Source: Aurantiochytrium sp. KH105 (taxonomy: Eukaryota; Sar; Bigyra; Thraustochytrida; Thraustochytriidae). Taken from it: DNA of 64,000 nt. Both the position numbers and the translations under genes were made by a program. The stretch is taken from assembly GCA_003116975.1 (NCBI GenBank), contig BGKB01000031.1, positions 310,001 through 374,000 of the forward strand. The letters run 5' to 3'. The notes under the pieces were generated by a model. It saw only the letters and a list, made by a program, of their open reading frames with translations. It did no database searches and had not been told where the DNA came from. Positions 12,355-37,646 of the stretch are shown piece by piece (positions within the stretch are counted from its first letter, which is position 1; each line of letters opens with the position of its first letter).

Positions 12355-13080
12355 TCATGCCGGGTCGTTAAAGTCCCAGATTTCCGGGTCAGTGAGCGGC
12401 ACAAAGTCGCTTTCCTTTTCGAGCTTCTCGTTAATTTCTTTTTCGTATGTAGCGCGGTCAACTTCTTTGAGCTTGGAACTCGCTTCCTTGTCCTGATCCT
12501 GCACACGCCCCAAAGCGCACCGAGACACCAAGAAAGAGAGAGTCAACGAGAGACAGGTTAGATGATCGAAGGGAGAGAACATAACGGCGAGCGAGTAACC
12601 TTTAGAATCTCGCTCGCAAGCGACGTAATTTTTTTCGCTTGCAGGCAACGTACCACTTGCCCGACGAGAACAATATTGTCGGATCGCACAATAATGACTT
12701 CGTTGCAAGGCTCCTTGAAGACGCTCGTGCCGGCAAAAGCGTAATCGTATGCGTCCTCGAGCACAATGTTGGCTGCGTCAAGTAAGCGAGCAAGCAAAGG
12801 CACCATGCGTTGCGTGAGTATTGCTGATCTGTTTATTTGTCTGTCTGTCTGACTGTCTGCCCGTTTGTTGAAAAGATCCTTGTAGAAGGTCGATAAACAA
12901 CGTCTTGCGCTACTTTTCGAGACGGTCTGCGCATAATGCCAACTCACAGTACTTGTCGATGGAGCTCAGGATTCCCACGAGGTGCCTACCGTCGCGCAAG
13001 ACGACCATGACGCGTCGATCAAGCTCCTCGATGAGCGACGAGGCACCCGGCAGGTGATAGTTTTCCATGAGCTTGCTCAT
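12355..13080 (-). CDS. LSM1: LSm1, decapping-complex Sm-like protein, three exons
   Basis: Exons in transcript order: 12948-13080, 12654-12772 and 12355-12498; 131 residues (human LSm1 has 133). Family knowledge: LSm1 defines the cytoplasmic LSm1-7 ring that binds the 3' end of deadenylated mRNA with Pat1 and promotes decapping. Seen: exon 1 gives the Sm1 motif (LPGASSLIEELDRRVMVVLR, then DGRHLVGILSSIDKY). Exon 2 gives NIVLEDAYDYAFAG and the Sm2 motif EVIIVRSDNIVLVGQV. Exon 3 is the charged C-terminal helix ending EIWDFNDPA. Introns are 12773-12947 (donor GTGAGT, phase 1) and 12499-12653 (donor GTACGT, phase 0). The gene is convergent with the aminotransferase, with 173 bases between stops. 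Confidence 0.93.
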
Positions 13081-13676: not shown

Positions 13677-16184
13677 TTAACGAAGACCGAAAAAGGAGCG
13701 CCGAGTAGAGCTCCGACGTTCCGATGCGTTGATGGGCATACCATTTTTGTAAAGTCTGCATACATTAGTGAGAAAGGACTCGCTCGAGAGCTGATTATTG
13801 GAAAAGTCAAGGCCCGTCCTGACCCAATGCACGCAAACGTCTTGATACGACCATATGTTGGCCACGTCCGGGAGAACGACGACAGGATCCGAAATTGCGT
13901 CGCCCAAGAGATCGGTGGCAGTCGCCGCATCGGCTTCGATGCGCAATTTGTGGTCTGGCACCCTGAGATCTTCGTACGCAACAACGGCCTCCCCGCGCAG
14001 CTGCTCCTGCCACGGAGCCCACGACAAGAGCCAAATGTCCAGGTCCGCATCGGTTATTGCGAGGGCCTCCGCGCGGGCAGCCTCGATATCTTCGGGGGTA
14101 ACGTCGACAAACTGCTCCCATTCCATAGCCCGAGGGGACACCGGAAGATCAAGGTCGTCCCTCAGCTCGAGCTCAAATTTTAGATATACACAAACGTCAT
14201 CGACGTCGAGGTCGCTCAAATTGAGCAGATTACTTGCATGTTGATGTACGACTCCAAGTCGCATTACACCTAGCCCGAGCTTGCGTAGCGCCGTGCGGTC
14301 GCCCCTGGCGTGAGCAAGCGCAGCCACAAGTTGCATCTGTCCAAGAGCCCAGACGGGTTTGTCCACACATGTGTCCACGGCGTCGGCCATGCGCATGAGA
14401 ATCTCTTCTCGCGCCACCTCGTCCGTTGCTGCAGTCTCGAGCACATCGCGCAGTCGTTCCAAGAGACTCTCTCGAAGGTCCGGGACGCGATTTTCTAAGC
14501 TCGAGGCGAGGAGTTTCAGGAACTCAATAATGTCGCGAACGTACGCGTTTTCAACAAATGGAGCAATCTCAATGTCCTCGGCGCCAAACAGAGCCAACGC
14601 GTCCTCTATTGTATTGATCGAGTTCAAATCGCCCACCTCGCGAAGACACTGTGTCTTTCGCCGCGGTTTGGGCACCGCTTGATCAGAATTTTTCTTGGAC
14701 GTTTTTGAGGTTGGTCGCATCGCTGTCGCCCCAAGTCTTGCCTCGTGCCCTTGCGACTGCGCCATGAGCTTGCCAGAGGCGGTGACTGAACCCGTACTTG
14801 CACTTCTCGATGTCCCTGTTGCGCTTCTCCGCGGTTCAAAGTCCGTTGTGTTTGCCCGCCGACTGTTTTCGAGCAGCGTCAGTACCGAAGCATCAAAGGA
14901 AAACTTGAGCACATCAGTCTCGATGCTTTGAAGAACCTCGTAAGAGTCAGGCTCGAGGTTTGTCGCGCGCACATCGACATGGAGCGTCTTCCTTCGCTGT
15001 TTCTCGAGAGCGACGACGGGAAGTCGGCGGAGCGAGGAGCAGCCACGAAGATCGAGCTTGGAGCCTTGAAAATTTGCAGTGACGGGAATCTTTGTCAGGG
15101 ACCACGCGTCTTGAAGCCACGTGTTTCCATGTACCGTCAACAAGTTCGGGAGCGTGGTGAGCGAGGTGCAGCTGCGCATGTCCAGATTGCCTTCGACAAT
15201 AAGGTAGTCGGGCAATTTGGACAACCGGGAACACCCTGCCAAGCAAAGTTCGCCACCGACACGTGCTAACGAGTCGGGTAAGCTCTCGAGCGACGAACAA
15301 TCCTCCAGATAAAGGCTCTCAACGTGCTCCAAATTGGAGGGAAGCTTCTTCAGCAGTCTGCACCCCCTGCAGTCCAGTGTGCCGCCGAGCTCGGCAAACT
15401 CCGGGAGCTCCGTGAGCCGATGTCCTCCCTCACGGACCGCGAGGTCTCCTCCGATGCGAATATTTGCGCCCCAGTTCTTGACGTCGACATTCAGGAGCAT
15501 GAGGCTTCCGCCGACGTGAAGCCGCTCTGGGACCTGTAGTGGTGCAGGATCGAGAAACTCGCCCTCCGCGCTAATTTCCGTCATGATGACGAGGTTGCCA
15601 TGGACATACAGCCCACTAGGTATCCTGGGTGGCGGCGAAGGCTCAGCGCGACTCGTGCTGGTGTGTCGTGATCTCTGCGCGCCCGGCACGAGAATCAAGG
15701 CATTGCCGCGGACGATCATGCGCGGGAAGTTTTCCACCAGGTCGACGACGAGAACTTCTTCAAAGGGTAGTGACACGCGCAAGGTTCCTCTGTTGGCAAG
15801 CCAATGCAGGGTCACATTGCTCGCCTCGAGGCTGCGCCGGAGGACCGAATCTGGCGGCAGTTTGCGCAGTTCGCGCGCGACCATGGCCCTTCCCGCGGGC
15901 CCAGCGCCGATAGACATCCTCCGGGTGCTCGGCCTTGCCGTCGACTGGGCGGTGATACACGCCATGGCCCTCTTGAGGGCGCGCGCGCTCGCGCCTGCGC
16001 TCTCGCGCAGCGTGCGGCCGCGCTCCCCGTGCTCGCCGGCAGCCCCGTTTGCGGCCGCGAGCGCCGGCAGCCCCGCGGCCTCGCGCGCGAGCCCCAGCAC
16101 ACGCACGACCGCCGCCTCCATGCGCGAGTCCCGCCGCACCCACGTCGAGGCCGTCACCTCGGCCACCGCCGTCGCGCTCTCCAT
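13677..16184 (-). CDS. LRR protein with NEL-type (IpaH/SspH-like) E3 ubiquitin-ligase domain, copy 1
   Basis: 835 residues, intronless, ATG start. Residues about 185-400 are leucine-rich repeats of roughly 21 residues with a C-x-S-L-x-x-L-P core, for example LEDCSSLESLPDSL and MRSCTSLTTLPNLL. Residues about 520-795 resemble the NEL domain of bacterial IpaH, SspH and SlrP effectors. MADAVDTCVDKPVWALGQMQ aligns with the IpaH catalytic loop EEATSSCEDRVTLAWNQMQ, putting the nucleophile at Cys606 (codon 14367-14369). VDDVCVYLKFELELRDDLDL aligns with VDEIEVFLAYQNKLRKALGL, and WLLSWAPWQEQL with WLLQWGPWHAVL. NEL enzymes take ubiquitin from E2 on a cysteine and pass it to substrates bound by the LRR. 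The N-terminal 180 residues are Ala/Arg-rich and unrecognised. Eukaryotic expression and activity are inferred. The domain call is from memory of the family and was not searched. Confidence 0.85.
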   Translation of the reverse strand: MESATAVAEVTASTWVRRDSRMEAAVVRVLGLAREAAGLPALAAANGAAGEHGERGRTLRESAGASARALKRAMACITAQSTARPSTRRMSIGAGPAGRAMVARELRKLPPDSVLRRSLEASNVTLHWLANRGTLRVSLPFEEVLVVDLVENFPRMIVRGNALILVPGAQRSRHTSTSRAEPSPPPRIPSGLYVHGNLVIMTEISAEGEFLDPAPLQVPERLHVGGSLMLLNVDVKNWGANIRIGGDLAVREGGHRLTELPEFAELGGTLDCRGCRLLKKLPSNLEHVESLYLEDCSSLESLPDSLARVGGELCLAGCSRLSKLPDYLIVEGNLDMRSCTSLTTLPNLLTVHGNTWLQDAWSLTKIPVTANFQGSKLDLRGCSSLRRLPVVALEKQRRKTLHVDVRATNLEPDSYEVLQSIETDVLKFSFDASVLTLLENSRRANTTDFEPRRSATGTSRSASTGSVTASGKLMAQSQGHEARLGATAMRPTSKTSKKNSDQAVPKPRRKTQCLREVGDLNSINTIEDALALFGAEDIEIAPFVENAYVRDIIEFLKLLASSLENRVPDLRESLLERLRDVLETAATDEVAREEILMRMADAVDTCVDKPVWALGQMQLVAALAHARGDRTALRKLGLGVMRLGVVHQHASNLLNLSDLDVDDVCVYLKFELELRDDLDLPVSPRAMEWEQFVDVTPEDIEAARAEALAITDADLDIWLLSWAPWQEQLRGEAVVAYEDLRVPDHKLRIEADAATATDLLGDAISDPVVVLPDVANIWSYQDVCVHWVRTGLDFSNNQLSSESFLTNVCRLYKNGMPINASERRSSTRRSFFGLR

Positions 16185-16950
16185 CCCGCCCGTGCCGCGC
16201 GCGTTCGCGCTATCCGCGCGTGCACAACGCGAGCGAGCAATTGCCTCTGCCCAGCTTTGCGGGCTCGCTCACGATCTCCTAGTACCTCACGTAGTAGCAG
16301 CGCGTGCACGAGGCTCCACGAATGTGCCATTTAATGTGGGGCCGCGCAGCGCGTGCGGCACGTGCCGCCGCGTCTCCTCGTTTTGCTCTCTCCCGCACGC
16401 TCGCCGCACTGCAGCAGCAGCTCGCAGCCACGTGGCGGTACCCGCTTCCCCCGGCCCGCACGCACGCTCGCTCGCTCGCTCGCTCGCTCTCCCGCCCGCC
16501 CGCCCGTGGCAGCTGGGGCCTGCGGCCCTGGGCACCGGTCGATGCCTAGGGCCCGCCGCCGCTGGCTCGTGTCGCCCTTCCAAGCCTCTGCTCTTCTCGC
16601 TTGTGTCGCGCGCTGCTTCGCGTGCGGGCTTGCTCGCGTGCTTGCTTGCTTGCTTGCTTGCTTGCCGCTTGCCTCTCTGGGCAGTTAGTTACCTCTGCCA
16701 GTGCCTGCGACGCGAGCGCGGCCGTGTGTGCGCGAGGCCTCAGCGGCCAGCACGGGCAGCTGAGCTGCGGCGAGCGGGGGAGAACGGCCGAGGCCGCAGA
16801 CTCTGACAAACGCGCAGCCTGCTGACTGCGCTGCGCGCAGGCGGGCGAGGCGAGGCGCGGGAGGCAGGCGCGGCGCGTAGTGGGCACGCGCGGTCGCAAG
16901 CGAGGGGAGGAAAGAGGGCAAGCGAGCTCGCGTGTGGTCGCGAAGGCAAG
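16185..16950. promoter_or_regulatory. Shared divergent promoter region of the two NEL genes
   Basis: 766 bases between two head-to-head paralogs. It holds a GCTC tetramer array (about 16465-16489) running into CCCG repeats, and a CTTG array (16641-16664). Very GC-rich with no conserved gene. Promoter function is inferred from position. Confidence 0.55.
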
Positions 16951-19803
16951 ATGGACCTTGACAACCTGCTGCGCGAACTGGTGACGCGCGCCCTCGCCGC
17001 GGGTGACCCGTTTGCTGGGACGTGGATGGCCGCGGACCAAAGACGCGATGGGTTTGCGACGGAGACGCGGCGACTTCTGGCGGCCTCGTCGCCAACACCA
17101 GAAGGAGCGGATGAGGAGGTCTGCTTCTGCTGCCACCCCAGCAAGTGGGAGCCCTATGTCACCACAGACGAAGACGAGCCCGTGTCGCTGAGTTTGACTC
17201 CCGTCTGGTGCTACAATCTCGATAACCGCTTCAAATGCCGACTCGACACCGTTTGGGTCCGAAGCATGGATTGTCTCGTCTACCTGGGTGCCTGCGCGAT
17301 TGTGACCCCGATTGCACTTGTCACAACGCCTTTCTGCATCCCTTCCATTCCGGATGATGACGAAGAAGCCTGCGCCATTTATTGCCGGAGCGGCCAGGAG
17401 ATCCACTTTTCCTCCGCTATGGCGGACTGCGCGGCCTCGACCACGGCGCTCATGTTGACGCTTCCAATCTGCCCAATCCTTTGCGTAACACCCATTGGTC
17501 TCGGTGTCTTGCGCGCCATCCAAGGCACGAGCGGACTTGCTTTGCACACAGGACGAAAGGCCTTCGAGGCACTCACGTGCAGCAAATACGGTTCAGTAGG
17601 AGAGGCGCTTGCGCCGCTCTCCGAAACCTCGCAAGTGCGCGAAGAGCTCGCAAAGGCCGTGATCCACTGGGATCCGCGGCACCATGCCATCAGCGTTTCC
17701 CATCCGCGCAGAGGCTACGTAAAGCTTGCAATTCTGGATAATTTGCCCCCTCTTCGCGTACATTCGAGTCTTCTTCTCATGGTTACGGAACTCGATCCAG
17801 GCGAGATTCAAGATGGTCTTTACGTCCGGAACGACCTCGTGATTATCCCTGAACCGCGCTCGACGACTCCCGAGGACAACCTCGCGCTTCCCGACGGTCT
17901 CTGCGTCGATGGCAATACCCTCGTTGCTCGGCTTACGGTGTCCTCCTTTGGCCGCAAAATGCGCTTCAAAAAGGACCTTGTACTACGCCTGGAGAACACA
18001 GAGCCTTTTCATCTCCCCGATGACATGATTGTGGAAGGCAACCTCAATTGCTCCACGTGCAGCGCTCTGGCAGGGCTCCCGTCGTCATGGACCTCGACCA
18101 AATCTCTCAACCTGTCCGGCTGCAACGCGCTCGAGACGCTGCCACCTGGCCTGAGTCTTGTGGAAGGACACTTAGTCCTCATCGAATGCGTCTCTCTGAC
18201 AAGTCTTCCAGAGGGGCTCACCGTCAAGGGCAACCTCGTGCTCCACGGTTGCACGGCACTCGAGGCCCTCCCCGAGGACCTTACAGTTACCGGCGACATT
18301 TTGGCAATAAATTGCAGGTCATTGCGGACGGTTCCTGCTTCAGTGCGCTGCTTGGGATTCGAATTCAATCTTTCCGGCTGCACGGCGCTCTTCTCACTTC
18401 CACTCGAGCCTTTTCAGCAGCCTCGTAGCAATTATCTCATGGTCAACGTGGCTGACACTAGTATTGTCGGCAGCGAGCTCGAGCAGCTGCAAAACGTCGA
18501 GAACGCGGATGTGCGTTTCTTTGTGGGCCATTTTGCTAGCGAAGAAGGCTCCAACGCAATTGAGCTCAGCACGCTCTACGACGTCGCCCGCGAATTCGAC
18601 GTTCAGGCCATCGACCTCGAAAAGTACATTGATGCTGCATACGTGTATGGCGTGCTCAAATTCCTCGGCATGCTGCTCTCGTCGAGCGAGTTTAAAAATG
18701 AAGATTATCGGGACGATCTCAAAGCGCGCGTCAAGGAGATTCTGGAGACCATCATCGCAGACCCAATTTCCCGCGATGAAATCGTCATCCGTATGCTTGA
18801 TGCCACGGACGCCTGTGCGGATAAGCCCATTTGGGCACTTGGGCAGATGCAGCTGGTCGTTGCAATTTCTCACGCCCGCGGGGACCGTGCAAAGCTTCGC
18901 GAGCTTGGTCGGTCCATCATGCGTCTCAATATTGTGCATGAGCACGTGGAAAGCTACATCAATTCGCAGAACAGGGCTGTGGACGACGTTTGCGTGTACC
19001 TGCGTTTCGAAATCGCCTTGCGGGAACCACTAGGACTTCCTGTGTCTTCCAAGGAAATGTTGTATGCCAACCACGTGCAAGTGAGCGACGCAGATATCGA
19101 CAAGGCCAAAAAGGCTGCGCTTGCAATCCCAGAGGAAAAGTTCGAGGCTTGGCTCGCGGCGTGGCCCGAGTGGCAGCGTCAGGGGCGTCTCGAAAAGATC
19201 GTGCCATACCTGGAGCTGCCCCGTTTCGCGTCCGAAGTCGACCCGCAGGCCATCACGGACGCAACGAACCTTCTTGGCGACGTCATTACAGATCCAATCT
19301 ATGTCCTTCCGGATACTTCTAACGTTTGGTCGTACAATGACTTTTGTGCTCACTGGGTTCGCACGGGTCTCGACTTTTCCAATGCCTCCACAGATTTTGC
19401 CGCTGCGCAGCGACTTCAGGATACGGAACCTACGACCGCGGAGAGTCCTCGCCGAGCCTCCTTGGCTCCGCGCCGCGTGTCTCTACGTGCGGGCGCAGAC
19501 GCTTCGGCAGCTCGTCGCCGTAGCTCGCGCATGAGCGAGATTGTTGACGACACCTTATCTACGGTCCTGATGCGGGCCATGTCCACTTGGCTTCCTTCGT
19601 CGGCGTCATCGGTCATCGGGTCAAGTGCTGCTCCAACGCCAGAAGCTACTTTTTCGCGCGATGCGGACGCTCAATTGTCGGTGAGACGCGGCATGGACAG
19701 CGACTCAGAAGAGCATGGCGGCGACTCAGAAGAAGAGGACGACGACGGCGACAAGAGGAGACTCGATTTTCCAGATTATGACAACCTTGAAAGCAAGCCG
19801 TAA
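16951..19803 (+). CDS. LRR protein with NEL-type E3 ubiquitin-ligase domain and N-terminal hydrophobic segments, copy 2
   Basis: 950 residues, intronless, paralog of the divergent neighbour. Order: a cysteine-rich N-terminal region with two hydrophobic segments (about 105-132 with YLGACAIVTPIALVTTPFC, and 161-190 with TALMLTLPICPILCVTPIG) that may enter a membrane. The shared pre-LRR region follows, then about nine leucine-rich repeats (300-495; for example LSGCNALETLPPGL and LHGCTALEALPEDL). The NEL-like domain is about 543-810. MLDATDACADKPIWALGQMQ puts the predicted catalytic cysteine at residue 622 (codon 18814-18816). VDDVCVYLRFEIALREPLGL and WLAAWPEWQRQ match the other NEL landmarks. 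The tail (811-950) is Ser/Arg-rich, then acidic. The membrane segments are absent from copy 1, so the two proteins probably work in different places. E3 activity is inferred. Confidence 0.85.
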   Translation: MDLDNLLRELVTRALAAGDPFAGTWMAADQRRDGFATETRRLLAASSPTPEGADEEVCFCCHPSKWEPYVTTDEDEPVSLSLTPVWCYNLDNRFKCRLDTVWVRSMDCLVYLGACAIVTPIALVTTPFCIPSIPDDDEEACAIYCRSGQEIHFSSAMADCAASTTALMLTLPICPILCVTPIGLGVLRAIQGTSGLALHTGRKAFEALTCSKYGSVGEALAPLSETSQVREELAKAVIHWDPRHHAISVSHPRRGYVKLAILDNLPPLRVHSSLLLMVTELDPGEIQDGLYVRNDLVIIPEPRSTTPEDNLALPDGLCVDGNTLVARLTVSSFGRKMRFKKDLVLRLENTEPFHLPDDMIVEGNLNCSTCSALAGLPSSWTSTKSLNLSGCNALETLPPGLSLVEGHLVLIECVSLTSLPEGLTVKGNLVLHGCTALEALPEDLTVTGDILAINCRSLRTVPASVRCLGFEFNLSGCTALFSLPLEPFQQPRSNYLMVNVADTSIVGSELEQLQNVENADVRFFVGHFASEEGSNAIELSTLYDVAREFDVQAIDLEKYIDAAYVYGVLKFLGMLLSSSEFKNEDYRDDLKARVKEILETIIADPISRDEIVIRMLDATDACADKPIWALGQMQLVVAISHARGDRAKLRELGRSIMRLNIVHEHVESYINSQNRAVDDVCVYLRFEIALREPLGLPVSSKEMLYANHVQVSDADIDKAKKAALAIPEEKFEAWLAAWPEWQRQGRLEKIVPYLELPRFASEVDPQAITDATNLLGDVITDPIYVLPDTSNVWSYNDFCAHWVRTGLDFSNASTDFAAAQRLQDTEPTTAESPRRASLAPRRVSLRAGADASAARRRSSRMSEIVDDTLSTVLMRAMSTWLPSSASSVIGSSAAPTPEATFSRDADAQLSVRRGMDSDSEEHGGDSEEEDDDGDKRRLDFPDYDNLESKP

Positions 19804-21759: not shown

Positions 21760-22107
21760 GCAAAAAAGGTCAGGACAACTTGTAAAATATGAAAATTACG
21801 TGTGCACGCATGCACGCACCCAAGAAAGCACGCACCCAAGCAAGCACGCCACCACCAAAGCGCGCAAAAGTTTCTCCTTCCCTGCCTTGCTTTGAAAGTC
21901 GTGTGCGCCAACTGTGGGGTCTGTGTGGGGGGGCGCGGAGTCCATCACTCGAGGTCACACCCTTCTCAGGCCCTTTCTTCCCCGGGCCCAACCCTCCCAT
22001 AGAAATCGATGGGAATCACCCGTCGTTCCCCAGGCAAAACGCAAAGCCTTCATGGCCCGGTGGATGTGCGCGCATGAAGCAGCGAGAGAACGAGTGACAT
22101 TGTGCGA
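21760..22107. other. Intergenic, no gene seen
   Basis: 348 bases with imperfect GCACGCACCCAAGAAA-like repeats (about 21800-21860) and a small perfect hairpin (TCCCAT, 8-base loop, ATGGGA) at 21996-22015 upstream of the next start. Confidence 0.55.
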
Positions 22108-23655
22108 ATGGGTGCGTCCGCATCCGTTGCCGATGGCGATGAGGCTCTTGTGGAGATCGCACAGCATCTGACGCCTGAAGCTATCCAAGAGCGCCCCTTT
22201 TACGTTCTGCTCTGTCCCGATGAAGTCGAGCGAGACCGGGTTTGGGCGCAGGCACATGCCCTCAAGTACGATTGCCATGTTGACGGGAGCGTCTCCGAGG
22301 AAGAAGGCGCGTCATGCGCTCGTGCGACCGCCGTGACCCAGGCGCTTCTCGACGGTCAGAGCAACATGGAAACTCTACAGACGCTGTATAACGATTTCGG
22401 AAGTACAAACTTGGCTGATATCTTCATTGGAGCAGTCGTTTCTGGAACTTTGAAAGGTGCTTTCGACGTGAACGAGGTGACGGCCAGTCGAGCAGCTCTT
22501 GCTGCTGACCTAGCAATGCAAATGGGCTTGGCGTTTGCGGCCGGGGGCGGCCCTCCGGGCATTGCAGTCGCTGCTGGAGCTGTTGCATTCAACGTGGCAG
22601 CTGGCGTTGCACTCAACGGCATGTTTGGCTCCGAAGGCAATTGCGCCGAAGTCCTCATTTACGACTCTTGCGTGACATGCCGAGCATACAAAGGTTCTGA
22701 CACACTAAAGTTCATTCCCTATTGGAAAGAACGTCTCGGCTCCTGCGATGGCTCGCTCTTGATAAGTGCCGGACAGCGTTGCTCAGAGAGCTTTCAGGTA
22801 GACCTTTCTGTAAAGGGTGCCGATGGCGTGCTTCGTCTCGACTCAGTGCATTGCCATGATCTCATCTTTGTTGCGACAGTGCAAGACGACTGCACGCACG
22901 TAGTTTGGTGCAAAGGCTCCTTCTCCGAGCCGGCACAGCGAGGAAAGACTGCAATTTATAAACTCAAGCATGGTCTTTCGAAGCGAGACATGTTGAGCTC
23001 GAGTTTGTCTCATGGCCAAGAAACAATGGAAACTTTGTCAAAGCGTATTGCAGAGGACTTGGGGGCTCCCGCGCAGCGCGCATTCTACAGCGCGTTACGC
23101 AGCGTCGATGCCAAAGTTGCCATGCTCACTCCTCAAACGATTTGCAGCTCAAAAAGTTCCGCTGTCGCAAAAGAACTCGGAGATCTCATTGAAACCATCG
23201 GAAACACGAGCGATGTAGCGGGAAAGGCTGAGACCGTCATCGAGCAAGCTGCTTTGGTCGGGAAGAAGATTGCGAATGGGGACCTTACTCAAGCCAGAGG
23301 CATCATCACAGGTATCTGCGCAGAGAGTCAAGAGGCCGTCAGCGCAGGCATGACGGCCGCCAAGGCTCAGGCAGCAGCAATTCCTGTCACGGAAGTGGTG
23401 CAAGCCCAAAGTGCAAACGTGTCGGGCCTTGCGGTACGAACAGAGGGAGCGCTGCAAAGCACAATTGAGGATTGTAAACAGAATTTCGATGCGGCCATCC
23501 AGAGCGCGACCGCCACTGCAGACCATATCGAGAAAGACATAATCCCTGACGCGCTGGCGAAGGGCGAAAAGATGGCCAACAATCTGCGCGATCGAATCTC
23601 GGACGTGTCCAAGACTCAAGCCGAGAAATTGTTCAACAGGATACCTAAATTATAG
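22108..23655 (+). CDS. Hypothetical protein with predicted N-myristoylation site
   Basis: 515 residues. The first ATG is 22108 (the frame opens with a GTG two codons earlier) and gives MGASASVADG, a good N-myristoylation signal (Gly2, Ser6). I do not recognise the family. Residues about 137-172 are Gly/Ala-rich and hydrophobic (FAAGGGPPGIAVAAGAVAFN) and could insert in a membrane. The middle has beta-rich sequence with several cysteines. The C-terminal 180 residues are Ala/Lys/Glu helices without strict heptads (for example KAQAAAIPVTEVVQAQSAN), similar in feel to apolipoprotein or LEA-type amphipathic helices. It is convergent with the ankyrin gene, with 81 bases between stops. A peripheral membrane role is inferred only from the N-terminus and helices. 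Confidence 0.75.
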   Translation: MGASASVADGDEALVEIAQHLTPEAIQERPFYVLLCPDEVERDRVWAQAHALKYDCHVDGSVSEEEGASCARATAVTQALLDGQSNMETLQTLYNDFGSTNLADIFIGAVVSGTLKGAFDVNEVTASRAALAADLAMQMGLAFAAGGGPPGIAVAAGAVAFNVAAGVALNGMFGSEGNCAEVLIYDSCVTCRAYKGSDTLKFIPYWKERLGSCDGSLLISAGQRCSESFQVDLSVKGADGVLRLDSVHCHDLIFVATVQDDCTHVVWCKGSFSEPAQRGKTAIYKLKHGLSKRDMLSSSLSHGQETMETLSKRIAEDLGAPAQRAFYSALRSVDAKVAMLTPQTICSSKSSAVAKELGDLIETIGNTSDVAGKAETVIEQAALVGKKIANGDLTQARGIITGICAESQEAVSAGMTAAKAQAAAIPVTEVVQAQSANVSGLAVRTEGALQSTIEDCKQNFDAAIQSATATADHIEKDIIPDALAKGEKMANNLRDRISDVSKTQAEKLFNRIPKL

Positions 23656-27540: not shown

Positions 27541-28989
27541 CGTGGCCTTGCTTTGATGTGCGTCCGCGCGCGACCTCGCAAGCAACCTCGCAAGCAAGCA
27601 ACCAAGCAAGCCAAAGAAGACTAAGCCTTGATCTAGAGAGGAGACGGCACTACTTTTTCGCCAGCGCCCTTACTTTTTCGCCAGCGCCCTTGGCTCTTCT
27701 TATTCGTATGAGCCGTGATCTGGCCAGACAGACACGCAAGAAAGAACCAAGCAAGGTCAACGCTAGCTACCTCAAGCATATGCGCGCCGCTATTCTCCCC
27801 TATTATCTATCTTGCCTGCCTTGCCTGTCTTGCCTGCCTGCCTTCTTGCCTACCTGCTCCCAGCACCATCGCAGTGCCTACCACCACCGTCTTCATCGTC
27901 CTATCATCAGGGACTCCCCCTCTGAACGGATACCTGCAAAGAACCAGCTCGGAACCTCTGCAGAACCGAGCTGGACGCCTGGCCGCTCGGCCCGACTCTT
28001 TTCCCTTTTTTTAAGGCGGCATGCCGGCCGCACGGTCGCGAGGATGCCTGACCGTGAGGCCTCGCCCCGGATCTCGCTTGCCGCCTCTCCGCGCCGCGCC
28101 GTGCTGTGCTGAGCTGCGGTGCCGGTGCCGGCCGAGCCGACGCCGCCGTGGCGAGCTCGAGCCGTGGCTGCGGGGCCGCAATTGGACTCGAGAGAGCAGA
28201 ATCTCGGAATGAAAGGCACGCGGCACGCCACGATGCCTCATGTGCAGAGCAGACGTCACGCCGCCTTGGGTACCAGAAGGGGCCGCTCGCGAGCCAGGTG
28301 ACTCGCAACGTCAGCGGCACGGCGAGCTGCGACGTCGGTTGCGATGGATCGTGAGCAGTGCTCGCTGCGACGTCGACTGCGATGGGTCGTGAGCAGCGCT
28401 CGCTGCGCTCGTCATCTCCGTCGTCGACGGCGAGGCGATGGACGTCGTCGATCCAGTCGTGAACGTAGGCGGCGGCAGCTGCTGCAGAAACATAAGAGAA
28501 ATAGACCCACGTCGGCCTCACACCAAGCCGGCGTCGGTGCCAGCGGCCACGGCAGCGGCGGCAGCAGCAGCAAGCGAGCGAGCGAGCGAGCCCACAAGTT
28601 GTCCAGGAGCTTCCTGAGGTATGAAGAAGTAGACCGGAGGAAGAGCCTGTCATGTAAGGCTGGAAAAAAAGGGCCGGCCCCGGCTCAGCGATCGATCACC
28701 GTGATCGACCCACCTACCACCTTACCTGCCATACGATGCGTGCATACCACCGCACATCGTCCTTGGCCAGTGAGGTGAGGCGTCATGCATGGAGAAGCCA
28801 GGCAGCTTTTTCTTCATCTTCATTTGTTCTTGATCGTGCTTGCGATTGAGACTATGGACTCTCTCTCGTCACTTGCAGGCGAGCAAACGAGCATGCAAGA
28901 TTGCAAAGCAAATCGCAAACGGCCTTGGGTCTAGAGAACGTTGGCGATCTGGGACAGCGGAGGAGGAAGCAAAGGCGGCGAGGGGAACG
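27541..28989. other. Divergent intergenic region with tandem duplications
   Basis: 1.45 kb between the ankyrin gene and the first permease. It holds a CAAG/CAAGC-rich run beside the ankyrin start (27577-27616), a 20-bp direct duplication (27651-27691), a 38-bp tandem duplication (28329-28405) and GAGC repeats (28575-28592). A pyrimidine tract ending in TTGCAG at 28874-28879 could be the acceptor of a 5' UTR intron of the permease. No coding gene is supported. Confidence 0.6.
28329..28405. repeat. 38-bp tandem duplication, two copies
   Basis: Two adjacent copies of a 38-base unit beginning TGCGACGTCG and containing GTGAGCAG and GCTCGC, differing at a few positions. Each carries the palindrome GACGTC, a CRE-like element. 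It lies 0.6 kb upstream of the permease start. Confidence 0.8.
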
Positions 28990-31908
28990 ATGGCGGTCCC
29001 CTTTGGTTGGGAAGGATGGTTCACGCTGGGTTGCCTCGCGGTCATGTTCATCGTCCTCGTGCGTGACTGGATGCCCGCCGACTTTGCGCTCGTCGCCACA
29101 CTCGGCGTGCTCATGGCAGCGCAGATTGTCACAACATCGGAAGGTCTCGAGGGATTCTCAAGCTCGAGCGTCCTCACTGTCGCGATCCTCTACGTGGTTG
29201 CCGCAGGCATCAACTCCACTGGTGCGCTTGACCACATCTTTGGCAAGGTGCTCGGAAACCCCAAGTCGCTCACGGTAGCGCAGCTACGTCTCATGGTGCC
29301 CATCGTGCTGGCATCAGCCTTTCTCAACAACACGCCTCTTTGCGCGATCATGATTCCGCTCGTGCAACGCTGGGCCCGACGCATCAAGCAACCCGTCTCG
29401 CAGCTCATGATTCCTCTGTCGTTCGCGTCCATTCTTGGTGGCACAATTACGCTCATTGGCACGAGCACCAACCTGGTGGTCGCAGGCAAGTTCTCTGCTC
29501 AGTTTCCTGGTCAAAGTATTGGTCTCTTTGACATCGGTGCTGTCGGCGTTCCTGCTGCAATGACTGGCATGGTTTACATTCTGCTTTTTGCGCCAATGTT
29601 GCTTCCAGGGTTCGAGGAGTTGGAGCGCCGGTCTCGCAAAGCTCTTGGACTCGGCGTAAGCGAGACCTCGAGCAACCCGTCGTTCGCAAACACAGGCGAA
29701 GAGAGTGCGCCGCGCGTTCCTGGCCAGCGCAGCAATTTCACCGTCTCGTGCATTGTCACGCCATACTCACCTGCAGTCGGCAAGGCTGTCGATGAAGCTG
29801 GTCTACGTGGTCTCAACGGCCTCTTCCTTGTCAGCGTCCAGCGCGGCCAGCGCATGCACAATGCTGTCGGTCCCGAGTTTGTCATCAACGAGGACGACGT
29901 TCTGTTTTTTACAGGCATCGTCGACCACTTTGGTGAATTCTGCATCAGACACGCCTTTGAGCTGGTTACGACAGACCTCGAAGACGATGATGATGTGGTA
30001 TCGCTTGACAGCAGCAGCAGTGAGCACATGAGCCCGTCACGTCCCTCGCAGCAACACCTTCGCGACCGACTGCTGGAGCCCCAGTCAGTGAGACTGGAGC
30101 CGCTGGGATGGGATATTGAGAGCGGCGCAACAGTGGCATCCGTAGCAAGTGTTCGCGCAGCGGAAGCAGACGCTGCAAAGAAGGGAGTTCCCACTCGAGA
30201 GCGAGTCGTGTCCGACCGTCGGTACACTTTCCGCGAGCGCATCACGCAAGTCGTTGTTCGCAGCGGCAGCACGCTCGAGGGAAAGACGGCCAAGGAGTGC
30301 AGGTTCCGCAAACGCTACGACGCCGCCATTCTATCCCTCTATCGTGCTGGCGAGCAGCTTAGCGTCCGCGGAAATCTTGGTCGCATTCCGCTCAAGGTTG
30401 GCGACGTTCTCTTACTCGTCACCGGTAACGACTTTGATTGGAGTGTACCAGAAATCGAACGCGATCTCAAGCCTTTTCTGGCAGAGGAAGCAGCGCTCAT
30501 AGAAGCTTCTCCGGTGCGTCAGCTTCAGGCTGTCTCACAACAAGAGCTCGAACGCGAGTTTCTCATTCCCATGCGCGTCAACGAAAACACACAGCTTCGC
30601 GGTGCCCGCAGTCTCGTTGGCCAGACCGTCGAGAGCGCGGGTCTGCGTGGTCTGCCCGGGCTCTTTCTTGTCGCTGTGGAGCACGATGACGGCACTGTCG
30701 AGCACGTCGTTGGCCCCGAGATGATCCTCGCTGCCAACGACATGCTCTGGTTCGCTGGCGAGCGCGAGGCTGTCGCCACCTTGCGTCGCATTCCTGGTCT
30801 TCACCCACCCGATACGCAAGCGCAAAAGCTCAAGGTCCAGCCCGTACAGCGACGCCTGGTAGAGTGCGTGGTGAGCATGCGCTCGCATTTGGTGGGCAAG
30901 ACGGTGCGCGAGTCCAAGTTTCGCACCCAGTACGAAGCGGCGATTATTGCTGTGCATCGTCAGGGTCGGCGCGTGCTGTCCAAGATTGGCGATATCGAGC
31001 TCCGTGCAGGCGACGTGCTGATTTTGGATACGGGTCCCAACTTTGTGCAGCGCTACCGCGACAACCCGAACTTTCTACTCGTGACAGAGATTGACGACTC
31101 GTCGCCGCCGCATTTTGACAAGTTTTACATTGCGCTCGTCTCGGTGATCATCATGCTCGTCATGTATGTCGTCTTTTCTGATTACATCAGTCTGATTGTG
31201 CCTGCGATCTTTGTTTCGGGGATCATGCTTATCAAGGGAATCCTGACGCCAGAGCGTGCGCGTAGGGCTGTTTCGTGGGACGTGATTGTGACAATTGCCG
31301 CCGCCTTTGGCCTGAGCAATGCTCTTTCCAAGTCGGGCGTTGCAAGCGCAATTGGCAACGCGCTTGTAGACCTCGCCGCTCTGACGGGAACAGGCTACGT
31401 GGGCGTGCTGACGGCCGTGTACTTTGCGACCTTTTTGCTTTCGATGGTTCTCTCCAACAACAGTGCGGCCGTGCTCATGTTCGACATTGCCATTACGGCC
31501 GCGCAGAACAGTTGCGCGGATGGCAACGATGGGCAGTCGCTCTGTGTGCAGCAAATGGTCTTTACGCTGATGCTTGCCGCCTCGTCATCCTTTTCCACAT
31601 CGTACGGTTACCAAACGAACATGATGGTTCTGAACGTGGGTAACTACGTATTCTTGGACTTTTTGCGGTTCGGCTTTCCGATGCAATTTTGGCAGATGAT
31701 CTTCTCTCTTATCTTTGTCTACTTTATGGAGCAGTGGTACTTTACATTGGTCATCACGCTGGCCGCTTTCGTCGGTGTTGTGACTTTACGTGTAGCTTTC
31801 AGCAATGGTCGCCGTCTTCCATCGTGGACGCGCTGCAAACGAACTTTGCAAGAAGAAGGTGGTAATTCTCCTGAGCTATCTTCAGATTTGGAGCTTACAC
31901 AGGTTTGA
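28990..31908 (+). CDS. SLC13/DASS-type anion permease with four RCK_C domains, copy 1
   Basis: 972 residues from the ATG that matches the start of its paralog (MAVPFGWEGWFTLGCLAVMF). Two membrane blocks (about 1-225 and 709-940) flank a cytosolic part. Seen in block 1: SAFLNNTPLCAIMIPLVQRW and GGTITLIGTSTNLVVAG, the Asn-Thr-Pro and Thr-Ser-Thr-Asn ion/substrate motifs of the DASS family. Block 2 has VLSNNSAAVLMFDIAITAA and a matching SFSTSYGYQTNMMV. Between them are four RCK_C (TrkA-C) repeats at about 250-315, 410-485, 515-595 and 615-690. Similar proteins include bacterial SLC13 permeases with two RCK_C domains and the algal SAC1/SLT sulfate transporters. Sulfate or a dicarboxylate is the likely substrate, but sequence alone does not decide. 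A 626-bp stretch is identical to copy 2. Confidence 0.9.
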   Translation: MAVPFGWEGWFTLGCLAVMFIVLVRDWMPADFALVATLGVLMAAQIVTTSEGLEGFSSSSVLTVAILYVVAAGINSTGALDHIFGKVLGNPKSLTVAQLRLMVPIVLASAFLNNTPLCAIMIPLVQRWARRIKQPVSQLMIPLSFASILGGTITLIGTSTNLVVAGKFSAQFPGQSIGLFDIGAVGVPAAMTGMVYILLFAPMLLPGFEELERRSRKALGLGVSETSSNPSFANTGEESAPRVPGQRSNFTVSCIVTPYSPAVGKAVDEAGLRGLNGLFLVSVQRGQRMHNAVGPEFVINEDDVLFFTGIVDHFGEFCIRHAFELVTTDLEDDDDVVSLDSSSSEHMSPSRPSQQHLRDRLLEPQSVRLEPLGWDIESGATVASVASVRAAEADAAKKGVPTRERVVSDRRYTFRERITQVVVRSGSTLEGKTAKECRFRKRYDAAILSLYRAGEQLSVRGNLGRIPLKVGDVLLLVTGNDFDWSVPEIERDLKPFLAEEAALIEASPVRQLQAVSQQELEREFLIPMRVNENTQLRGARSLVGQTVESAGLRGLPGLFLVAVEHDDGTVEHVVGPEMILAANDMLWFAGEREAVATLRRIPGLHPPDTQAQKLKVQPVQRRLVECVVSMRSHLVGKTVRESKFRTQYEAAIIAVHRQGRRVLSKIGDIELRAGDVLILDTGPNFVQRYRDNPNFLLVTEIDDSSPPHFDKFYIALVSVIIMLVMYVVFSDYISLIVPAIFVSGIMLIKGILTPERARRAVSWDVIVTIAAAFGLSNALSKSGVASAIGNALVDLAALTGTGYVGVLTAVYFATFLLSMVLSNNSAAVLMFDIAITAAQNSCADGNDGQSLCVQQMVFTLMLAASSSFSTSYGYQTNMMVLNVGNYVFLDFLRFGFPMQFWQMIFSLIFVYFMEQWYFTLVITLAAFVGVVTLRVAFSNGRRLPSWTRCKRTLQEEGGNSPELSSDLELTQV

Positions 31909-34466: not shown

Positions 34467-37400
34467 TTAGACTTGAGCCATTTCAAGATCCTTGTTTGCG
34501 CGCTGCGCACTTGGCGAGCCAAAGCTCGAAGCGTCCCCTACCTGCTCACCGGCAGTGGGGCTCTGAACAGGTTCCACGGCTAACTCGACGTCGTCGTTAC
34601 TATTATGGCTCGTGCGAGTCATTCCGAGCGATCCATCGCCGGGCTGTGAAGGCGAGCCAGGTGTCTTTGAAGTTGATTCGTGGCCAGCATCTGAGTCTGC
34701 AGAAGATGAGGAAGCGTTGGAAGATGCCGCGGCGGCTTCCTCACGCATCTCAATCTCTGGATCCGCTACGTCGCGCTTGCAACGCATCCAAGCAGGAAGA
34801 CGCTTGCTGAGCGTCGAGTCCTTGCTGAGGAGCACGCGGACAAAGATCGTTCCAATAAAAGCGGCCAGCGTGATGACCAAACTGAGGTACCACTGCTCCA
34901 AAAAGTAGACAAAGATGAGAGAGAAGATCATCTGCCAAAATTGCATCGGAAAGCCGAACCGCAAAAAGTCCAAGAATACGTAGTTACCCACGTTCAGAAC
35001 CATCATGTTCGTTTGGTAACCGTACGATGTGGAAAAGGACGATGATGCAGAGAGCATCAGCGTAAAGACCATTTGCTGCACACAGAGTGACTGACCATCG
35101 TCGCCATCCGCGCAACTGTTCTGCGCGGCCGTAATGGCAATGTCGAACATGAGCACGGCCGCACTGTTGTTGGAGAGAACCATCGAAAGCAAAAAGGTCG
35201 CAAAGTACACGGCCGTCAGCACGCCCACGTAGCCTGTACCGGTAATTTCGGCGAGGTCGACGAGCGCGTTGCCAACTGTTGTAGCCACTCCGGTATTCGA
35301 CAAAGCGTTACTCAGTCCGAAGGCGGCAGCAATCGTGACAATCACGTCCCACGAGACGGCGGCGCGGGCACTTTCTGGAGTCAGAATACCAGTCACGAGC
35401 ATGATGCCCGAGACAAAGATCGCAGGTTCGATAAGCGTGATGTAGTCCGAGAAGACGACGTACATGACGAGCATGATGATCACCGAGACGAGCGCAATGT
35501 AAAACTTGTCAAAATGCGGCGGCGACGAGTCGTCAATCTCTGTCACGAGTAGAAAGTTCGGGTTGTCGCGGTAGCGCTGCACAAAGTTGGGACCCGTATC
35601 CAAAATCAGCACGTCGCCTGCACGGAGCTCGATATCGCCAATCTTGGACAGCACGCGCCGACCCTGACGATGCACAGCAATAATCGCCGCTTCGTACTGG
35701 GTGCGAAACTTGGACTCGCGCACCGTCTTGCCCACCAAATGCGAGCGCATGCTCACCACGCACTCTACCAGGCGTCGCTGTACGGGCTGGACCTTGAGCT
35801 TTTGCGCTTGCGTATCGGGTGGGTGAAGACCAGGAATGCGACGCAAGGTGGCGACAGCCTCGCGCTCGCCAGCGAACCAGAGCATGTCGTTGGCAGCGAG
35901 GATCATCTCGGGGCCAACGACGTGCTCGACAGTGCCGTCATCGTGCTCCACAGCGACAAGAAAGAGCCCGGGCAGACCACGCAGACCCGCGCTCTCGACG
36001 GTCTGGCCAACGAGACTGCGGGCACCGCGAAGCTGTGTGTTTTCGTTGACGCGCATGGGAATGAGAAACTCGCGTTCGAGCTCTTGCTGGCTTGCGTGAT
36101 TGAGATGATCAATGGCGGACTCTATCCTTGAGCCGTCGCGCGCCTGCTCTGCGATGACCGCTTCAGAGATGAGAGGTTTGAGATCTTGTTGAATGACCTC
36201 GTTGCCCCAGTCAAAGTCGTTACCGGTGACGAGCAAAAGGACGTCACCGACCTCGAGAGGAATGCGGCCAAGGTTACCGCGAATGCTGACTTGCTCGCCA
36301 GCACGATAGAGGGATAGAATGGCGGCGTCGTAGCGTTTGCGGAACTTGCATTCTTTGGCCGTCTTTCCCTCGAGCGTGCTGCCGCTGCGCACGACGACCT
36401 TGATGATGCGTTCCTCAAAGGTATTTTTGCGCTCCATGCGGGATTTTGCGCCCTTTGGCTTTTGTTTCTTTACGGATGCTACCGAGGCGGACGCTCCGGC
36501 CTCGCCCCAGCCAATAGGTTCCAGGGACTGCTGACTGTGTCTGAGATGGCTCTGCACGCTCGCGACGGACTCGGCATCGCTCTCTTCGTCCTCGGAGCTG
36601 AGAACGGACGCGCGAGCCAGATCGGGGTGTTGAAGGTGCTGGTCCTCGTTCGCATCTGTAACAAGCTCAAAGCCGTGGGTGAGGCAGAATTCGTGGAAAT
36701 GGTCAACGAGGCCGGTGAAGAAGAGAATGTCGTTCTCGTTGATGACAAACTCTGGGCCGACGGCATTGTGCATGCGCTGGCCACGCTGAACGCTGGTAAG
36801 GTAGAGGCCATTGAGACCACGCAGACCGGCCTCGTCGACAGCCTTGCCAACGATAGTGGAATAGGCTGTGACGATGCATGCGACGGTGAAATCGCCGCCA
36901 ATGCCCCCGGACCCGCCGCTCGGCGCGCTAACGTCGGCTTGTGGGTCCTGGTTGCTGATGATCGACTTGCCACCAGCGCCGTCGAGGCCCAGCGCCTTGC
37001 GCGAGCGGCGCTCGAGCTCCTCAAATCCAGGGAGAAGCAAGGGCGAAAAGAGAATAATGTAAATGAGACCTGTCATGGCGGCGGAGACGCCGACTGCGCC
37101 AACGTCAAAGAGTCCAATGCTTTGACCGGGAAATTGATCCTCGAACTTGCCGGCGATGACAAGGTTCGTGCTGGTACCGATAAGTGTAATGGTGCCGCCG
37201 AGAATGGAAGAGAAGGAGAGTGGGATCATGAGCTGTGAGACGGGTTGCTTGATGCGACGCGCCCAGCGCTGCACAAGCGGGATCATGACCGCGCAGAGAG
37301 GTGTGTTGTTAAGAAAGGCCGAGGCGATGGCCACGGGGACCATGAGGCGCAATTGCGCAATGGCGAGCGACTTGGGGTTGCCCAGGACCTTGCCAAAGAC

Positions 37401-37646
37401 ATGATCAAGCGCGCCTGTAGAGTTGATGCCTGCGGCAACGACGTAGAGGATGGCGACGGTGAGGACCGCCGAGCTTGAGAATCCCTCGAGGCCTTCAGAG
37501 GTGGTGACAATCTGCGCTGCCATGAGCACGCCGAGCGTGGCGACGAGCGCGAAGTCGGCGGGCATCCAGTCGCGCACGAGGACGATGAACATGACCGCGA
37601 GGCATCCCAGCGTGAACCATCCTTCCCAGCCGAAGGGGACCGCCAT
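34467..37646 (-). CDS. SLC13/DASS-type anion permease with four RCK_C domains, copy 2
   Basis: 1059 residues, tail-to-tail paralog of the permease at 28990. Same architecture: membrane block 1 with AFLNNTPLCAVMIPLVQRW and TLIGTSTNLVIAGKF, four RCK_C repeats, and membrane block 2 with VLSNNSAAVLMFDIAITAA. It differs by a longer Ser/Glu-rich linker after the first RCK_C pair and an 85-residue disordered C-terminal tail. Silent sites differ through most of the gene, but 35461-36086 is base-for-base identical to 30541-31166 of copy 1, and 34918-35039 is identical to 31588-31709. The substrate is unknown (sulfate or another divalent anion is likely). The start is the ATG conserved in both copies. 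Confidence 0.9.
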   Translation of the reverse strand: MAVPFGWEGWFTLGCLAVMFIVLVRDWMPADFALVATLGVLMAAQIVTTSEGLEGFSSSAVLTVAILYVVAAGINSTGALDHVFGKVLGNPKSLAIAQLRLMVPVAIASAFLNNTPLCAVMIPLVQRWARRIKQPVSQLMIPLSFSSILGGTITLIGTSTNLVIAGKFEDQFPGQSIGLFDVGAVGVSAAMTGLIYIILFSPLLLPGFEELERRSRKALGLDGAGGKSIISNQDPQADVSAPSGGSGGIGGDFTVACIVTAYSTIVGKAVDEAGLRGLNGLYLTSVQRGQRMHNAVGPEFVINENDILFFTGLVDHFHEFCLTHGFELVTDANEDQHLQHPDLARASVLSSEDEESDAESVASVQSHLRHSQQSLEPIGWGEAGASASVASVKKQKPKGAKSRMERKNTFEERIIKVVVRSGSTLEGKTAKECKFRKRYDAAILSLYRAGEQVSIRGNLGRIPLEVGDVLLLVTGNDFDWGNEVIQQDLKPLISEAVIAEQARDGSRIESAIDHLNHASQQELEREFLIPMRVNENTQLRGARSLVGQTVESAGLRGLPGLFLVAVEHDDGTVEHVVGPEMILAANDMLWFAGEREAVATLRRIPGLHPPDTQAQKLKVQPVQRRLVECVVSMRSHLVGKTVRESKFRTQYEAAIIAVHRQGRRVLSKIGDIELRAGDVLILDTGPNFVQRYRDNPNFLLVTEIDDSSPPHFDKFYIALVSVIIMLVMYVVFSDYITLIEPAIFVSGIMLVTGILTPESARAAVSWDVIVTIAAAFGLSNALSNTGVATTVGNALVDLAEITGTGYVGVLTAVYFATFLLSMVLSNNSAAVLMFDIAITAAQNSCADGDDGQSLCVQQMVFTLMLSASSSFSTSYGYQTNMMVLNVGNYVFLDFLRFGFPMQFWQMIFSLIFVYFLEQWYLSLVITLAAFIGTIFVRVLLSKDSTLSKRLPAWMRCKRDVADPEIEMREEAAAASSNASSSSADSDAGHESTSKTPGSPSQPGDGSLGMTRTSHNSNDDVELAVEPVQSPTAGEQVGDASSFGSPSAQRANKDLEMAQV

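Follow-up and report, generated by a model that had tools for sequence, protein, structure and literature searches.

The stretch of DNA analysed here, which we call the window, comprises 64,000 nucleotides of Aurantiochytrium sp. KH105 (contig BGKB01000031.1, positions 310,001 to 374,000) and carries two genes, A and B, arranged head to head, whose predicted products combine leucine-rich repeats (LRRs) with a NEL domain, the E3 ubiquitin-ligase domain of IpaH and SspH (Table 1). An initial annotation of the window had proposed a NEL domain in the product of gene A, and the Pfam profile PF14496 bears this out with 86.7 bits against a cut-off of 24 (expectation value, E, 2e-24). NEL is the single Pfam domain of this protein in a scan at E up to 1. 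The sequence landmarks on which the proposal had been built are present, and the cysteine that it had singled out, Cys606, is correctly numbered and placed, lying in the catalytic CxD motif TCVDK and aligning in a search of PDB sequences with the cysteine of the TCEDR loop of SspH1. Gene B was missed by that annotation, although its NEL match is the stronger of the two (105.6 bits, E 3.3e-30, same cut-off). Over 678 alignment columns, A and B share 33% identity.

Table 1. Features of the divergent gene pair, with positions in the window.
Feature	Position	Strand	Basis
Gene A, LRR-NEL protein, 835 residues	13677..16184	-	Open frame with one terminal stop; NEL by Pfam; allele on contig C93
NEL domain of gene A, residues 548-731	13992..14543	-	Pfam PF14496
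Predicted catalytic Cys606 codon, gene A, CxD motif TCVDK	14367..14369	-	Cys and Asp in 32 of 32 NEL domains
Regular LPx LRRs, gene A, residues 260-408, unit of 21-22 residues	14961..15407	-	LP spacing; XopL profile match
85-residue slice after NEL, gene A, motif G..DPV..W...HWV.TG.D	13755..14009	-	Alignment of 16 genes
Divergent intergenic stretch between A and B, 766 bases	16185..16950		Between the first ATGs of the two genes
Gene B, second LRR-NEL protein, 950 residues	16951..19803	+	Open frame; head to head with gene A
Two hydrophobic N-terminal segments, gene B, from residues 105 and 160	17263..17484	+	Hydropathy scan; possible membrane hairpin
Regular LPx LRRs, gene B, residues 355-503	18013..18459	+	Repeat spacing; beta-solenoid in predicted model
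NEL domain of gene B, residues 568-743	18652..19179	+	Pfam PF14496
Predicted catalytic Cys622 codon, gene B, motif ACADK	18814..18816	+	Alignment of 32 NEL domains
85-residue slice after NEL, gene B, same motif G..DPV..W...HWV.TG.D	19174..19428	+	Alignment of 16 genes

Among PDB sequences the best match of gene A is SspH1 (E 8.7e-10), and the LRR and NEL parts of gene B together match SlrP (E 8.3e-16); the best 20 matches listed for each gene include 12 distinct sequences of NEL enzymes. The LRR part of gene A is also matched by plant NADase-type LRR proteins (E 1e-8). With NCBIfam, the NEL stretch of gene A falls weakly on the SlrP, IpaH and SspH2 models, far below their cut-offs, as expected since these models are narrow and the domain is a distant relative. 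The LP spacing in the repeats of gene A is 21, 21, 22, 21 and then 43 residues, and the weak match of the XopL profile is best over residues 269-327. The predicted NEL fold is all-helical (modelled for gene B, with gene A as a row of the alignment), the predicted model of gene B includes an LRR solenoid, and for each model the nine top-ranking structural matches are NEL enzymes. The initial annotation had held that a missing NEL profile match together with a fold unlike the all-helical NEL domain would refute its assignment, as would a Cys606 outside the catalytic loop; we found the profile match, the all-helical fold (on the model of gene B) and Cys606 within the loop. Given the Pfam score, the 12 PDB sequences of NEL enzymes and the predicted fold, a chance match is excluded.

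The first ATG fits as the start of gene A, since the allele differences in the first 100 codons favour third codon positions (7 of 10). Gene B carries hydrophobic segments near its N-terminus, as does its close paralogue on contig C4, likewise with two, and because of these segments its product may sit on a membrane. The hydropathy scan found no hydrophobic 19-residue segment in 9 of the 11 frames scanned, gene A included. The stretch between the two genes shows many gaps when the alleles are aligned, and could be a shared promoter region.

Across the host assembly (76.03 Mb, 367 contigs) we found at least 32 NEL matches, all of them over the cut-off and all without internal stops; the number is a lower bound, the genome search having ignored introns. 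The same search found no NEL in 14 control genomes. The 32 domains form exactly 16 pairs, 96.5-100% identical within the pair, the next highest identity being 65.7%, and given this gap we read them as a probable family of 16 NEL genes on two haplotypes. The cysteine is present in 32 of 32 domains, as is the aspartate two residues downstream, and both columns are invariant in a 12-row alignment that includes three bacterial NELs; the Cys of this CxD loop we take to be the catalytic residue of NEL enzymes. The loop continues with Lys-Pro in 30 of the 32 domains and with Met-Ile in two, and a nearby Trp is found in 30.

The open frames of the NEL genes range from 635 to 3,546 codons. Full or nearly full frames of 12 of the 16 genes were scanned with Pfam (the L015 frame being cut at its start), and at C13:204265, C367, C87 and C17 the sequence around the NEL was read. 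SPRY domains are present in two of the 12 scanned genes (E 1.3e-15 and 2.2e-12) and a SAM domain in one (E 4e-17), in every case on both alleles, and no HECT or RBR match was obtained in these 12 genes. An Arm repeat in one gene scored below the cut-off (18.5 vs 20.6 bits) and was absent from its allele at E 0.01. LRR profile matches are uneven across the other NEL genes, several of the scanned frames being without a match to an LRR family. The SAM-bearing gene (L015/L020) has an unusually long stop-free frame of 3,539 and 3,546 codons, read in part.

Conservation extends beyond the NEL domain. The 85-residue slices that follow it share an invariant Trp and an invariant Gly of HWV.TG across all 16 genes; one gene lacks the DPV half of the motif, and others have it in altered form. 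The fuller motif, G..DPV..W...LL.HWV.TG.D, looked U-box-like, and Pfam gave no U-box match for 10 of the 16 slices at E up to 10, in a scan limited by the HMMER filters, which drop most weak matches; its two matches were unrelated (E 0.15 and 0.21), and the slice of gene A had no match at all. No U-box was found either when the post-NEL profile was run against PDB sequences, where the best matches were a DNA polymerase iota construct (E 0.74), in a stretch that is presumably a ubiquitin-binding motif, and viral VP2 proteins (0.92), none of them significant. In gene B this region is modelled with low confidence, in blocks with a mean predicted local distance difference test score of 39-61. The region matches no known family and stays unassigned; a new module peculiar to the eukaryotic branch is one possibility.

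Around A and B, Pfam identifies window genes for tubulin, Pex2/Pex12, a U3-associated Utp6-type protein, PRP38 and TRM5/TYW2, three of the ten window frames scanned being without a match. Of the two neighbours that the initial annotation had given for gene A, delta-tubulin and LSM1, a tubulin/FtsZ family gene is indeed there, not directly next to gene A because gene B lies in between; LSM1 found no support, the open frames at 12355-12708 and 12558-12947 having no Pfam match, for which an intron within the gene is a possible reason. The tubulin gene is adjoined by a 517-residue open frame (22102-23655, plus strand) without a Pfam match. Farther along lie two very similar long transporter genes in convergent orientation (28840-31908, plus strand, and 34467-37646, minus strand), the first of which is matched by Pfam as CitMHS with TrkA-C domains; long protein stretches look identical by eye, suggesting a recent duplication or gene conversion.

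The NEL genes are spread over many contigs of up to 1.14 Mb. Between the codon use of nine of them and that of nine other window frames the correlation is 0.83-0.94; the nine window frames correlate among themselves at 0.84-0.92. The ratio of non-synonymous to synonymous substitution rates (dN/dS) between alleles was calculated for 11 of the 16 pairs, the second alleles of the other five having been read around the NEL; over the last 350 aligned codons it lies between 0.03 and 0.42, and over the aligned frames it is 0.10 for gene A (783 codons) and 0.22 for gene B. The alleles are under purifying selection. With their eukaryotic genome context and host codon use, these genes fall outside the definition of a type III effector as a bacterial gene whose product leaves by type III export.

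Relatives were sought in 84,980 prokaryote species, each represented by a single genome. The eukaryotic-only NEL alignment matched 17 stretches, none of which was a relative, a limited negative that depends on a single pattern of 9 residues. With a mixed eukaryotic-rhizobial alignment there were 114 relatives; the 80 that we kept are from Bradyrhizobium foremost, Pseudomonas, Paraburkholderia and other Pseudomonadota, with one record labelled Mycobacterium sp., and 79 of the 80 have Pseudomonadota titles (some genera being assigned by us). Their identity is 24-33%, except for one match of 40% over 57 residues. Plasmids contributed 156 records, with identity below 30% among the 20 matches listed.

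In the tree each of the 16 genes is represented by one allele, next to 33 bacterial rows, 30 of them hand-picked for spread from the 80 kept relatives and the others taken from plasmids (L035-L037). The 50 kept loci outside the tree are mostly further Bradyrhizobium, with some Pseudomonas and others; L049 (Salmonella), L052 (Citrobacter), L064 (Klebsiella) and L076 (Pandoraea) were left out deliberately. All 16 eukaryotic genes stand on one side of a branch with support 100/100, the stem measuring 2.02 changes per column, and the bacterial rows L095 and L037 have long end branches. Being unrooted, the tree is silent on which side is older. The NEL gene L058 clusters with rhizobial NELs; its record, which bears the name Mycobacterium sp. 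KBS0706, is likely to be mislabelled or mixed.

We also considered a viral origin and rejected it, as searches of viral contigs with gene B (4 pattern matches) and with the eukaryotic NEL alignment (34) confirmed no relative. The mixed alignment matched 28 viral contigs at 25-27% identity; we assume that these are prophages of enteric bacteria, and all 28 were left out. A phage collection gave one record (30.2% identity), and A and B each matched three PHROGs families of unknown function (best E 2.9e-12).

On this evidence we consider it very likely that A and B are two members of an endogenous family of 16 NEL-class E3 ligases, an old eukaryotic branch whose catalytic activity is a prediction. 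The initial annotation had left the choice between a captured effector and an unrecognised eukaryotic branch, and we favour the second because of the 16 genes on two haplotypes, the deep group with its long stem, the SPRY and SAM fusions and the host-like codons. The results suggest that the NEL class of enzymes has a eukaryotic branch as well, a resident one that either was there from the start or derived from an ancient bacterial capture followed by expansion. In bacterial NELs the cysteine accepts ubiquitin from an E2, the aspartate of CxD assists its transfer, and the LRR both binds the substrate and keeps the NEL in check. By analogy, an E2 would pass ubiquitin to the NEL of A or B, where it would form a thioester on Cys606 or Cys622, respectively, the aspartate would help its transfer to lysine, and the LRR solenoid ahead of the NEL would bind the substrate and keep the enzyme off until it is bound, a form of autoinhibition. 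In other members SPRY or SAM would provide further binding modules, and the gene B protein might be tethered to a membrane.

Several points weigh against this interpretation. One gene (C40/C64) has CxDMI instead of CxDKP in both of its domains, another (C87/C30) lacks the nearby Trp in both, and the allele pair C367/C222 accounts for the dN/dS of 0.42. Identity to bacterial NELs overall is low at 19-33%, with the same exception of 40% over 57 residues, and the two-domain template modelling scores (TM-scores) are low. The fold match is not independent of homology, because bacterial NELs were among the sequences aligned for AlphaFold, whose training drew on PDB structures. The age and spread that we propose for the family are deduced from divergence, the host being the one eukaryote searched.

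An endogenous family overlaps with the strongest alternative, that of a captured effector, whose chance we put a little short of even. Here an ancestor would have taken one bacterial NEL gene from a symbiont, a pathogen or prey, and duplication and the gain of eukaryotic domains would have followed. The 80 kept relatives are bacterial and, in all but one case, carry Pseudomonadota titles, the single stem seen in the tree would fit one transfer, and the LPx type of LRR, with its units of 21-22 residues, resembles that of bacterial effectors; but no bacterial row falls inside the eukaryotic set, the stem is long, and the eukaryotic-only alignment, within the limit of its one pattern, found no relative among the prokaryotes scanned. 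Capture, if there was any, was probably old. The converse, in which NEL would be an ancient eukaryotic thioester E3 class beside HECT and RBR, and IpaH, SspH, SlrP and NopM would derive from a protist LRR-NEL gene that a bacterium had acquired, seems to us doubtful.

It is quite improbable that the host secretes these proteins as effectors into its own prey or hosts, and that they do not act in its own cells. Characterised NEL enzymes are exported effectors, and an expansion to 16 genes whose paralogues share at most 65.7% identity would be in keeping with an arms race. Hydrophobic segments are nevertheless absent from gene A and from 8 of the 10 other frames, which, on hydropathy and with the N-termini uncertain, speaks against classical signal peptides, SPRY and SAM are mostly intracellular modules, and selection on the alleles is purifying, not diversifying, in the 11 pairs compared. 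That the fold was kept and activity lost is very unlikely: two genes depart near the catalytic loop, but Cys and Asp are in place in every domain, among paralogues that, in the nine genes compared, go down to 33% identity. Contamination or bacterial symbiont DNA in the assembly, an idea prompted by the fact that NEL is otherwise known from bacteria, deserves next to no weight, as the eukaryotic neighbour genes, the host-like codon use, the allele dN/dS and the third-position bias argue strongly against both contamination and pseudogenes, and as the family occupies many contigs on two haplotypes and includes SPRY and SAM fusions.

The proposed endogenous family resembles the IpaH, SspH, SlrP and NopM ligases in its LRR-then-NEL order, CxD loop, all-helical NEL fold and LPx repeat units. 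It differs from them in being encoded by a eukaryote, with 16 paralogues, SPRY and SAM fusions, a conserved post-NEL motif region and CxDKP in 30 of the 32 domains, whereas most of the 30 bacterial rows have CxDR. With HECT and RBR ligases it would share its proposed chemistry, a ubiquitin thioester on the E3; unlike them it has the NEL fold, and the 12 genes scanned lack HECT and RBR matches. The LRR of gene A matches the NCBIfam profiles of XopL and XopAE weakly, far below cut-off, but A and B carry NEL, whereas the ligase domain of XopL is of another kind.

NEL ligases are commonly described as having arisen in bacteria and as lacking a eukaryotic counterpart; database entries or papers on eukaryotic NELs may exist. 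If our interpretation is true, eukaryotic ubiquitin biology would gain an E3 class in the form of a resident family of 16 genes, phylogeny could be used to test where a major effector family came from, and enzymes from a non-pathogen would be at hand for studying how LRRs control NEL activity.
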